From positions 1 through 50,689 of the IMG/VR virus record IMGVR_UViG_3300045977_000410: 50,689 nucleotides of DNA, one strand, 5' to 3'. Within the stretch, counting starts at the first letter, position 1. Each line of letters begins with the position of its first letter. Shown here one piece after another: positions 8,958-33,831 of the stretch. The position numbers and the translations under genes are program-made. The notes under the pieces are model-generated. The model was not told the DNA's origin. It saw only the letters and a list, made by a program, of their open reading frames with translations, and did no database searches. Origin of the DNA: a virus.

Positions 8958-8981
8958 CTCCCGGCTGGATCCAGCCGGGAG
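8958..8981. repeat. Perfect 24-base palindrome
   Basis: CTCCCGGCTGGA is followed by its exact reverse complement. Flanking GGCGA/TCGCC bases can extend the stem with a small bulge. It lies upstream of the lysis promoter. There is no clear T-run, so a terminator role is possible but unproven. Confidence 0.6.
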
Positions 8982-29997: not shown

Positions 29998-30429
29998 ATG
30001 CTCATGGACAAGGAAAAGTGGACTACCTGGATAATGGCTGAGATGCGCAGGCAGAATCTGACCCAAGCTGTTCTATCACGTAAATCTGGACTGATCCGGC
30101 AGACGATCAGCAATTACGTCAACAACCCACCAGATAAACCGGACCTCGATGTATTTTCGGATTTGGCAAAAGGATTGGGTTTGCCGCTCAGTATCCTACT
30201 CGAGAACGCCGGCTATATCAACGAGTTGACTGACTCGAAACAAGTTGCTGAGAAAGTCGCTGCTTACAAACTTTCCGAGCTGAATGAAGAACAACTCGAT
30301 CGAATCATCGAATACATCGAATTCATACAGGACCGGGCGAGTCCTACAAGCTACGTCCAGACGAAGAGAAAGAAAACTCGGGAGGGGTCACCCCCTCCCG
30401 AGCAGGTTAAAGATAAAGTAGAACAATAG
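29998..30429 (+). CDS. Xre-family repressor 1 (CI-like)
   Basis: 143 residues. The HTH lies near 15-70 (MRRQNLTQAVLSRKSGLIRQ, TISNYVNNPPDKPD), with a helical C-terminal part (LNEEQLDRIIEYIEFIQDR). There is no S24 peptidase domain, so RecA-driven self-cleavage is not expected. ATGs at 29998 and 30004 are both possible; no clear ribosome binding site is seen. A perfect hairpin lies in its 3' end (30377-30402). It probably maintains lysogeny. Confidence 0.8.
   Translation: MLMDKEKWTTWIMAEMRRQNLTQAVLSRKSGLIRQTISNYVNNPPDKPDLDVFSDLAKGLGLPLSILLENAGYINELTDSKQVAEKVAAYKLSELNEEQLDRIIEYIEFIQDRASPTSYVQTKRKKTREGSPPPEQVKDKVEQ
30377..30402 (+). repeat. Perfect 11-bp stem inside the repressor 3' end
   Basis: CTCGGGAGGGG (30377-30387) pairs with CCCCTCCCGAG (30392-30402) around a four-base loop. 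No T-run follows. It may protect or attenuate mRNA between the two repressor genes. Confidence 0.5.
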
Positions 30430-30446: not shown

Positions 30447-30794
30447 ATGAATGACCGGACTGATTTTGTCACATGGCTAACCTCAGAAATGGATACAAAA
30501 TACTGGAATATATCAGAGCTGGGTAAGCATTCTGGGTTGAGCAGAGGCGCAATAAGCAACGTGATCCACCGTAAACGAAAGCCCGGCGCCGCATTCTGCC
30601 AGGGTATTGCACAAGCTTTTGATCTGCCAGTGGAACTGGTTTATCTGAAAGCTGGTCTGCTTCGGCAGATCGAAAATCCAATGCGTATAGCAGAGATTAT
30701 CATCCATCGTAAAGCTAACAGGATGAACGACAATCAATTGCAGGAGCTGATCCGTTATATCGACTGGATGCAATACCGGAATAGAAGCGCATAA
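30447..30794 (+). CDS. Xre-family repressor 2, paralog of repressor 1
   Basis: 115 residues. The HTH ([20 protein letters not shown]) and the C-terminal helix ([19 protein letters not shown]) align with the first repressor, indicating tandem duplication and divergence. No peptidase domain. The two may form heterodimers or bind different operators. Confidence 0.78.
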
Positions 30795-31586: not shown

Positions 31587-31795
31587 TACACACGGATCCC
31601 CACCGCTCCCATCCGTGCGCACCCCGGCTCCCCCTCGACTGCTCATAGTTCACATCCGTGAGGTCGGGGGTTCGAGCCCCTCCGCGCCCACCACGCCGCC
31701 CCAAGGGTGCACGGATACACCCAAAACTCATCCGTGCACCCCCCGGCTCGGGTTCCTTACCAGAACTCCTCCACCGCGCATCACACGGACCGGTT
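31587..31795. other. Integrase arm-type repeat cluster
   Basis: Copies of ATCCGTGCACCC or parts of it flank the core: ATCCGTGCGCACCC before it, an inverted GGGTGCACGGAT after it, then ATCCGTGCACCC again, plus weaker CACACGGA copies at both edges. This spacing resembles integrase arm-binding sites around attP. Confidence 0.55.
31649..31693 (+). other. attP core: 3' half of tRNA-Val(CAC)
   Basis: Forty-five bases reproduce a tRNA from anticodon loop to end: loop TTCACAT (anticodon CAC), stem half CCGTG, variable AGGTC, T-arm GGGGG-TTCGAGC-CCCTC, acceptor strand CGCGCCC, then ACCA. The 5' half is absent (the preceding bases cannot pair), so this is not a tRNA gene. It is the usual form of a phage core that restores the host tRNA after integration. 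Confidence 0.85.
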
Positions 31796-31826: not shown

Positions 31827-31866
31827 TTATCAGAACTGTTCTGATCATTATCGGAACAGAAGTTCT
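31827..31866 (+). promoter_or_regulatory. Operator-like palindromes before the integrase
   Basis: ATCAGAAC-T-GTTCTGAT is a near-perfect palindrome, followed by TTATCGGAAC (right half of the phage-wide dyad) and GAAC-AGAA-GTTC. They lie 20-60 bases before the integrase start and probably control its transcription. Confidence 0.55.
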
Positions 31867-31887: not shown

Positions 31888-32820
31888 ATGTCCACTACTG
31901 ACCAGATCACCTTCTCCCAGGCCATCGAAGGCTTCGAGCTCGCCTGCCTGGCCCGCCGGCTCAGCCGGCACACCCTGCGCGATTACAAGACTACCTTCAA
32001 GAAATTCTCCGCCTGGCTCGATTTTGATCCCCCCATCGACCAGGTCACCCACCACCAGGTGGAGCGATTCCTGGCCGAGCAGCCGGTCTCCGCCAAGACA
32101 GTGCTCAACTACCATACCGGCCTTTCCGCCCTGTGGACCTGGTCCACCGCCGAGGACATAACCGCACACCACATCCTGCGCCGCGTCGAGCGCCCATCCC
32201 CGGAGAAGCGCGCCATCATCCCTTACACCGAAGCCGACATCAAAGCCATGCTCGCCAGCCTGGCCTCCTCTCGCCCATACGGCCGGCCAGGAAAGCGCAC
32301 ATCGACCCACAGCCTGCCCCACCAGGAGCGCAACCGCGCCGCCATCCTGCTCCTGCTCGATACTGGCATGCGCGCCTCTGAGCTGAGCGAGCTGTCCATC
32401 CACCAGCTCGATCTGAAAAACAGGAGATGCCGCGTCTTCGGTAAGGGCGCCAAAGAGCGCAGCCTGCCCATCTCCCCCAACACCGCACAGGCTCTCTGGC
32501 GCTACCTGCAGACCCGCCGCTCCGAGCGTGCCGGCGCGCCTTTGTTCGCCACTGCGAACGGGTCCACGATCACCCGCGACCGGCTGTTCAAGCTGCTCCA
32601 GACCATCGGCGCCCGCGCAGGCGTGCAGGATGTCACCGTCCACCGCTTCCGCCACACCTTCGCCATCACCTACCTGCGCAACGGCGGCGATCCCTGGAGC
32701 CTGCAGGTCATGCTTGGCCATACCACGATGGACATGGTGCGCAAATACCTCGCCATCGCCCAGGCCGACCTGGAGGCGCGCCACAGCATCGCCTCCCCTG
32801 TCGCCAACTGGAATCTGTAA
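31888..32820 (+). CDS. int: Phage integrase (tyrosine recombinase)
   Basis: 310 residues: core-binding domain (LARRLSRHTLRDYKTTFKKF) and catalytic domain with DTGMRASELSEL (Arg I), GKGAKERSLP (Lys), HRFRHTFAI (His-x-x-Arg), MLGHTTMDMV (His) and RKYLAIAQ (Tyr). Its position about 195 bases downstream of the tRNA-type attP core makes it the likely integrase. No separate excisionase is obvious. A terminator hairpin follows at 32974. Confidence 0.92.
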   Translation: MSTTDQITFSQAIEGFELACLARRLSRHTLRDYKTTFKKFSAWLDFDPPIDQVTHHQVERFLAEQPVSAKTVLNYHTGLSALWTWSTAEDITAHHILRRVERPSPEKRAIIPYTEADIKAMLASLASSRPYGRPGKRTSTHSLPHQERNRAAILLLLDTGMRASELSELSIHQLDLKNRRCRVFGKGAKERSLPISPNTAQALWRYLQTRRSERAGAPLFATANGSTITRDRLFKLLQTIGARAGVQDVTVHRFRHTFAITYLRNGGDPWSLQVMLGHTTMDMVRKYLAIAQADLEARHSIASPVANWNL

Positions 32821-32973
32821 CATGCGCCAAAACGGAAAAAACGGTCCTTCTTTTCCGGGAAGGTCCCCCCTGCAGGCCCGACCGCCGCCCGCGCGCGTGG
32901 CGCTCCTCGAGGAGTGTATTCACATGTCTACACGCATTATTCGAAAGAAAAGGGATTAATCAATGAGAGATTA

Positions 32974-33005
32974 GGCAATAAGGAAAACCTGGTCGCCTTA
33001 TTGCC
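32974..33005 (+). terminator. Terminator-like hairpin after the integrase
   Basis: GGCAATAAGG (32974-32983) pairs perfectly with CCTTATTGCC (32996-33005), followed by TTGTTGCCTTATTT. It probably ends the integrase transcript. Confidence 0.6.
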
Positions 33006-33018
33006 TTGTTGCCTTATT

Positions 33019-33046: not shown

Positions 33047-33051
33047 TCTTT

Positions 33052-33082
33052 AATTGAAAATCATTTTCAATTATGATATACT
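33052..33082 (+). promoter_or_regulatory. Promoter overlapped by a Fur-box-like palindrome
   Basis: TTGAAA (33054-33059) and TATACT (33077-33082) with a 17-base spacer form a strong sigma70-type promoter. The perfect palindrome AATTGAAAAT-C-ATTTTCAATT (33052-33072) covers the -35 and spacer, and its core TGAAAAT-C-ATTTTCA fits the 7-1-7 pattern of Fur-family operators. Transcription should start near 33089. Confidence 0.65.
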
Positions 33083-33088
33083 CGAATT

Positions 33089-33240
33089 ATGCGAGACAAA
33101 CACGCGCCATCTGTGAAAGGCTGCAAACCGGAGTCGGAGCCGGGAAAGCGGGTGCAACGCCCACCTCGGCGCGTGCCATTTTTCATTCATCTCGCATAAG
33201 TAGCCCGGAAGCGCTGGCCCCGCCCGGGCTGCTTTGTCTC
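33089..33240 (+). ncRNA. Candidate structured RNA of unknown class
   Basis: The predicted transcript begins with ATGCGAGA (33089-33096), which pairs exactly with TCTCGCAT (33190-33197). Inside, CACGCGCC (33101-33108) pairs with GGCGCGTG (33168-33175), and smaller hairpins (such as GGGTG-CAA-CGCCC) fill the interior. A final hairpin AAGTAGCCCGG/CCGGGCTGCTT (33198-33234) may terminate it. An overlapping short open frame starts within the promoter and is unlikely to be translated. No known riboswitch or sRNA class was recognised. Confidence 0.5.
33198..33234. terminator. Hairpin at the end of the RNA candidate
   Basis: AAGTAGCCCGG pairs with CCGGGCTGCTT (one G-U pair) around a 15-base loop, then TGTCTCTTCCCC. 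It could terminate the rightward RNA and, read in the other direction, the leftward tail operon. Confidence 0.5.
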
Positions 33241-33265
33241 TTCCCCTTGTCCCCTCTCCCTTGTT

Positions 33266-33285
33266 CTGCTAACCGGCATTATCGA
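33266..33285 (-). promoter_or_regulatory. Dyad site D11, end of the tail operon
   Basis: Arms CTGCTAA and TTATCGA, between the last late gene (33294) and the structured RNA candidate. Confidence 0.6.
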
Positions 33286-33293
33286 AACAGGAA

Positions 33294-33593
33294 TCAGCCA
33301 TCAGTGGTCGGCCGTCCGCTTTCGATTTTTTCCTTCATCGCCGCCTCGATCCGCATCCCCTGCATCTTGGCTAGCGCCGCTTCCAGGATTGCAATCGCAT
33401 CCCCGAAATTGAGCTGCGCTGTCCCGATCACCGTAATCCCAACCTCGCCCGGAAAGCGGTAATCTGCCCTCAGCACAATATCCACCACCGGTGCCGTCTC
33501 AGCTGCCAGTAGATTCTGCACCCGCTTAGCCTGTTCGGATTTGTTTTTTGTTTGCAGCAGCGCCGGCAGGTCTGCCTTCCTATTTGGTTTCAT
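33294..33593 (-). CDS. 99-residue protein after the tail fibre
   Basis: Basic N-terminus (MKPNRKADLPALLQTKNKSE), then a beta/helix part (VVDIVLRADYRFPGEVGITV, AIAILEAALAKMQGMRIEAA). It is the last gene of the late leftward operon and overlaps its neighbour by 14 bases. Not recognised. Confidence 0.5.
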   Translation of the reverse strand: MKPNRKADLPALLQTKNKSEQAKRVQNLLAAETAPVVDIVLRADYRFPGEVGITVIGTAQLNFGDAIAILEAALAKMQGMRIEAAMKEKIESGRPTTDG

Positions 33594-33831
33594 TCAAGCC
33601 TCCTAATATCACCAGCGGCAGCCGGATTTTAGAACGCGGTTGATAATTAGGACACTCCGGCCAGCAATCGCTGCATCCTGGATAACAGATCCACGGCTCC
33701 GGTGTGTGCAGTATATAGACAGCGGTTATAGTTCCTGGCCAAGGTCCTTGTGCGCCAGTCTGAACTGCATCAAAAGCCATTACTATCATCATCAGAACAG
33801 ATACGATTAAGAGAAACCAAAATATTTTCAC
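33580..33831 (-). CDS. Small membrane or secreted Cys-rich protein
   Basis: 83 residues: one N-terminal hydrophobic segment (MKIFWFLLIVSVLMMIVMAF) and an outer part with four Cys (CYPGCSDCWPEC). Position after the fibre gene could suit a lysis, exclusion or fibre-assembly role; the sequence alone does not tell. Confidence 0.5.
   Translation of the reverse strand: MKIFWFLLIVSVLMMIVMAFDAVQTGAQGPWPGTITAVYILHTPEPWICYPGCSDCWPECPNYQPRSKIRLPLVILGGLNETK

Follow-up and report, generated by a model that had tools for sequence, protein, structure and literature searches.

Many bacterial chromosomes encode small RNAs (sRNAs) that respond to iron, and RyhB, PrrF, FsrA, and IsrR are Fur-repressed examples with an iron-sparing role. 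In Bacillus, FbpA, FbpB, and FbpC are small, basic proteins that are also Fur-regulated. IsrR, the staphylococcal member of the Fur-repressed sRNAs, finds its targets by means of C-rich unpaired regions (PMC9410917). Host Fur also controls promoters carried by phages, as is the case for stx1 of Stx phages (PMC5552940) and for a prophage operon of C. difficile whose promoter has a Fur site (PMC6311696). Prophages also encode sRNAs, such as AsxR, StxS, AgvB, and DicF (PMC7873438). A small search of the open-access literature retrieved no report joining Fur-box control with a phage sRNA. The initial annotation of the DNA analyzed here had suggested that a temperate phage RNA controlled by the metal status of the host would be new; within that search this holds for a phage sRNA with a Fur box, but Fur-controlled promoters of phages and prophages were already known (PMC5552940, PMC6311696).

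The window, i.e., the whole stretch of DNA that was analyzed, is a 50,689-base record of a temperate bacterial virus. The - strand encodes the main structural genes (terminase, tail), the last of which converge on position 33294. Between these convergent tail-end genes and the integrase there is a gap that contains a Fur-box unit, which we read as a phage-borne, Fur-repressed transcription unit that would act mainly as RNA (probability of about 0.47). The relevant features are the following.

29998 to 30429 and 30447 to 30794: repressor-like genes
31888 to 32820, + strand: tyrosine integrase gene (phrog_1 match, E 1e-43; PF00589), immediately 5' of the Fur-box unit
32973 to 33006, + strand: AGGCAATAAGG/CCTTATTGCCT hairpin, identified by inverted-repeat analysis between the integrase and the Fur-box promoter
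33051 to 33073, no strand: Fur-type operator TAATTGAAAATCATTTTCAATTA, a perfect odd palindrome of 23 bp with 11-bp arms and a central C
33054 to 33082, + strand: sigma-70-type promoter with -35 TTGAAA, 17-nt spacer, and extended -10 TGATATACT
33089 to 33197, + strand: proposed 5' structured domain, stem 1 plus stem 2 with inner hairpins, from single-sequence folding only
33089 to 33199, + strand: leaderless open reading frame (ORF) of 36 codons, MRDKHAPSVKGCKPESEPGKRVQRPPRRVPFFIHLA, with ATG at the predicted +1 and TAA at 33197-33199
33198 to 33235, + strand: strong hairpin (-21.6 kcal/mol, z -2.83), 3' of the structured domain and followed by CTTTGTCTCTT
33236 to 33267, + strand: C/U-rich stretch TCTCTTCCCCTTGTCCCCTCTCCCTTG, predicted to be mostly unpaired
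33281 to 33332, + strand: second candidate terminator, an ATCGAAA...TTTCGAT stem followed by TTTTT

Several other elements surround the integrase gene. On its 5' side, TTCACATCCGTGAGGTCGGGGGTTCGAGCCCCTCCGCGCCCACCA (31648-31696, + strand) resembles a tRNA 3' half with CCA, whose anticodon loop would read CAC (valine), and is the probable core of attP; it is this element, and not the Fur-box element, that looks like an attP. The repeat CATCCGTG, with copies at 31610, 31653, and 31729, possibly provides arm sites for the integrase. Just 5' of the gene there is a perfect 17-bp palindrome, ATCAGAACTGTTCTGAT (31829-31845), of which a second copy with two mismatches is found at 33791-33807. It is likely an operator of the phage repressor and differs from the Fur-type palindrome, for which the identity of phage repressor operator was rejected because of this distinct palindrome before int. 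The hairpin at 32973-33006 likely insulates the integrase from the Fur-box promoter. Its inverted repeat (AGGCAATAAGG...CCTTATTGCCT) is followed by an additional copy, TTGCCTTATT, and these repeats (32973-33018) could be the terminator of the integrase or a protein-binding array; the - strand folds strongly in this area (z -3.9 for the segment starting at 32961). The promoter region is flanked by CGCATTATTCGA (32933-32944) and its near-complement TCGAATTATGCG (33082-33093). Elsewhere, the longest perfect palindrome of the window is an even one of 24 bp, CTCCCGGCTGGATCCAGCCGGGAG, at 8958-8981.

The promoter TTGAAA-17-TATACT of the initial annotation is present, with the -35 at 33054-33059, the -10 at 33077-33082, and a TG preceding the latter; it scores 10 of 12 matches plus the extended -10. 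The start predicted from this -10 is 33089, which is, as had been proposed, the first base of stem 1. The palindrome covering the promoter had been described as having 21 bases; its symmetry is indeed perfect, but it extends over 23 bp. Its core, TGAAAAT-C-ATTTTCA, follows the 7-1-7 pattern of Fur boxes (close to TGATAAT-N-ATTATCA), and the operator overlaps the -35 and most of the spacer, as expected of a Fur box acting on a promoter. This placement is of the repressor type. The palindrome is beyond chance, because the whole window, shuffled 60 times, produced arms of 11 bp in just one case and because the 17-mer TTGAAAATCATTTTCAA has no second place in the window at up to three mismatches (0.07 expected). 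No gene of the Fur family was found in the record, hence the regulator would be that of the host. Taken together as a Fur-type operator with its promoter, these elements are identified with high confidence.

Transcription from 33089 would begin at an ATG, which opens the 36-codon ORF; at its other end, the stop codon of this ORF closes stem 1. The earlier statement that no gene fits on this strand is thus incorrect. The main rival to our reading is a leaderless gene, repressed by Fur, for a basic peptide of 36 residues (MRDKHAPSVKGCKPESEPGKRVQRPPRRVPFFIHLA), in which the pairing of the ends is incidental or regulatory. The ATG lies exactly at +1, six bases past the -10, which is the classic leaderless spacing and arises by chance in about 2.8% of local shuffles; moreover, this ORF scores best among the six frames, and a hairpin lies directly 3' of its stop codon. 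On the other hand, its codon score ranks at the 2.4th percentile among real segments of phage genes and at the 85th among noncoding frames, 52% of the shuffles with an ATG at +1 remain open for at least 36 codons, the search for homologs of the product found none, and stem 1 is predicted to sequester the start codon. We regard this coding reading as unlikely, even if it fares best among the alternatives: the unit is more likely a noncoding regulatory RNA than a microprotein, and an RNA with both functions is possible.

The 8-bp stem enclosing a second 8-bp stem, as initially annotated, was recovered exactly. Stem 1 (TTATGCGAGA/TCTCGCATAA, 33087-33096/33190-33199) has 8-10 bp, of which 33089-33096/33190-33197 are within the structured domain, and stem 2 (CACGCGCC/GGCGCGTG, 33101-33108/33168-33175), of 8 bp, lies inside it. 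At the DNA level, these nested stems are beyond chance, because stems of that size arise in 1 of 2,000 shuffles and occur nowhere else in the window. Relative to shuffles, the + strand folds moderately better (z between -1.3 and -2.5), whereas the - strand, with extra G-U pairs, reaches z -3.4 to -3.9 over the stem unit of 113 bases. Because some thirty of 633 other segments tested have z ≤ -3 on at least one strand, little can be concluded from folding energy alone. The stems might instead belong to the - strand, as a structured 3' untranslated region of the leftward tail transcript, with the Fur-box promoter serving something else or nothing. The folding scores (z -2.4 for the + strand but -3.4 to -3.9 for the - strand) and the greater number of G-U pairs are in line with this, as is a terminator-like site on the - strand (32863-32846); yet that site has just five pairs, and the 2.5 kb scanned would by chance alone yield 2.3 sites of this kind, while the strong promoter, the hairpin-plus-T signals, and the position of the start on stem 1 favor the + strand. 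The - strand origin is therefore improbable. As for the structured RNA of no known family that had been proposed, the exact nested stems speak for it and the lack of Rfam matches and of homologs, the better fold of the - strand, and the leaderless ORF at +1 speak against it, so that a structured RNA read from the + strand is possible.

The strong hairpin that had been noted after the stems is present at 33198-33235. Few T residues follow position 33235, and it may act as a first, weak terminator. The stem at 33281-33332, which overlaps the end of the convergent ORF at 33294, is a better terminator signal. If transcription reads through the first hairpin, the C/U-rich stretch between the two is a candidate base-pairing region; tracts of this kind (30 of 33 positions pyrimidine or purine) number five in the window. 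Pairing of the predicted transcript with the start regions of the phage genes gave no convincing target and nothing beyond chance. In terms of the features of Fur-repressed sRNAs, the terminator-like hairpins are present, yet the 36-codon ORF opens at +1.

When 206 bases of the locus were compared by blastn with 399 genomes of the Brevibacillus phylum, almost all matches were confined to the palindrome. The identical 25-mer (33050-33074) occurs in four Bacillota genomes, in all four of them 5' of feoAB, with about 100 bases to the FeoA-like gene and feoB next (FeoB was assigned by TIGR00437 and FeoA named from sequence and position). In a Brevibacillus genome, TGAAAATCATTTTCA with at most one mismatch has 12 sites, against 1 for the reversed control, and the sites inspected precede genes for a Fe-dicitrate-type ABC ATPase, two siderophore-binding lipoproteins, a flavodoxin, and fumC, which make up a recognizable Fur regulon. 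Identical or nearly identical sequences are thus found before iron genes in the Bacillota genomes inspected. The reading of the palindrome as a metal (Fur) box is strongly supported by these identical and near-identical sites, and that the operator corresponds to a genuine iron-box sequence is, at the sequence level, well supported. The palindrome might also be the operator of Zur or of an unrelated dimeric regulator, with zinc or something other than iron as the signal. The mycobacterial Zur box has the same core as the phage site (PMC2660348, PMC4298942): the box of M. tuberculosis, TATTGAAAATCATTTTCATTA, has ATTGAAAATCATTTTCA in common with it (PMC2660348), and sites similar to this box have been described (PMC4298942). 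In all the Bacillota contexts inspected, however, it is iron genes that follow the site. A regulator other than Fur is about as improbable as a - strand origin of the stems, and iron appears to be favored over zinc as the metal sensed.

The Rfam search proposed with the initial annotation gave no match at the gathering score and no credible one up to E 10. A known RNA family or riboswitch was rejected, the only low match (RNase P, E 2.5) being noise; likewise, no tRNA or tmRNA was detected, and a retron noncoding RNA was discarded because the record has no RVT_1 (reverse transcriptase). Homologs of the stem region were absent from viral contigs, phages, plasmids, E. coli, 23 related phage records, and about 785 genomes of two phyla. 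Nothing was matched by blast in the collections of phages, plasmids, and E. coli, and searches of 386 genomes from the Calothrix phylum and 399 from the Brevibacillus phylum, made without a positive control, gave no convincing match beyond the palindrome. Such an absence is weak evidence, because of the missing control and because the true host group is probably outside the genomes covered. The palindrome is also absent from the 23 related phage records, the relatives of the integrase in viral contigs (44-56% identity) have other downstream sequence or none that matches, and no relatives of the neighboring tail-end proteins were found. Three viral loci matching short RNA patterns (L049, L050, and L051) were rejected as chance: the matches span only 18-20 nt, and their contexts are unrelated, with tRNA genes adjacent to one locus and dissimilar flanks around the other two. 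On the evidence of these searches, the Fur-box unit seems private to this phage. That it is an AT-rich palindrome next to unrelated inverted repeats in an intergenic gap, devoid of function, would fit the lack of conservation among the searchable related phages and of homologs of the stems, and is very improbable given the 25-bp identity to feoAB operators, the exact overlap with the promoter, and nested stems found once in 2,000 shuffles.

In favor of the RNA unit, we count the 25-mer identical to feoAB operators, the Brevibacillus sites, the placement over the -35, the lack of a phage Fur, the distinct operator of the phage itself, the start on stem 1, the nested stems (1/2,000), the hairpin and terminator-like signals of the + strand, and the parallel with the C-rich regions of IsrR. 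Against it, we count the lack of a homolog, and hence of covariation, the better fold of the - strand, the ATG-opened 36-codon ORF at +1, the lack of a convincing phage target, and the 23 related phage records without the site. The phage would carry a small unit with its own promoter and terminator or terminators, located in the gap that separates the integrase from the convergent tail-end genes. Iron-loaded host Fur would occupy the 23-bp palindrome, block the -35 and the spacer, and keep the promoter off; upon iron starvation, Fur would be released and transcription would start at 33089. Beyond repression and release, we infer that the transcript would comprise a closed domain of two stems, then a hairpin, and probably an unpaired tail rich in C/U, and that it would most likely be an iron-starvation regulatory RNA, acting like RyhB and IsrR by base-pairing with messages of the host or the phage. 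The fuller proposal, in which a Fur-repressed structured regulatory RNA without known relatives is encoded by a temperate phage itself and, from its place at the integrase end of the prophage, retunes host or phage expression under iron starvation, is tentative. If true, a virus would sense the iron status of its host via the host's own repressor and answer with an RNA, not with a toxin or another protein, which would unite the iron-responsive sRNAs of chromosomes with the Fur-controlled promoters of toxin phages.

Like RyhB, PrrF, FsrA, and IsrR, the phage unit has a Fur box inside a sigma-70/A promoter, a short predicted transcript with hairpins, and terminator-like signals; unlike them, it is carried by a temperate phage, may have an ORF at +1, and is unrelated in sequence, and its transcript and targets are putative. 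The C-rich stretch predicted to be unpaired recalls that of IsrR, by analogy and not by kinship (PMC9410917). If the ORF is real, its product would be short, basic, and induced by iron starvation, as are FbpA, FbpB, and FbpC, from which it would differ in being leaderless and in showing no homology. We know of no Fur-box promoter for AsxR, StxS, AgvB, or DicF, and the phage unit differs from these in having one; no sequence relation to them was found. Like them, it would provide a phage-borne regulatory RNA, in this case a predicted one, read in the lysogen (PMC7873438). Finally, it shares with stx1 (PMC5552940) and with the C. difficile prophage operon (PMC6311696) a phage promoter carrying the operator of the host Fur; in those two systems the promoter drives protein genes, whereas here it would drive a candidate phage RNA.
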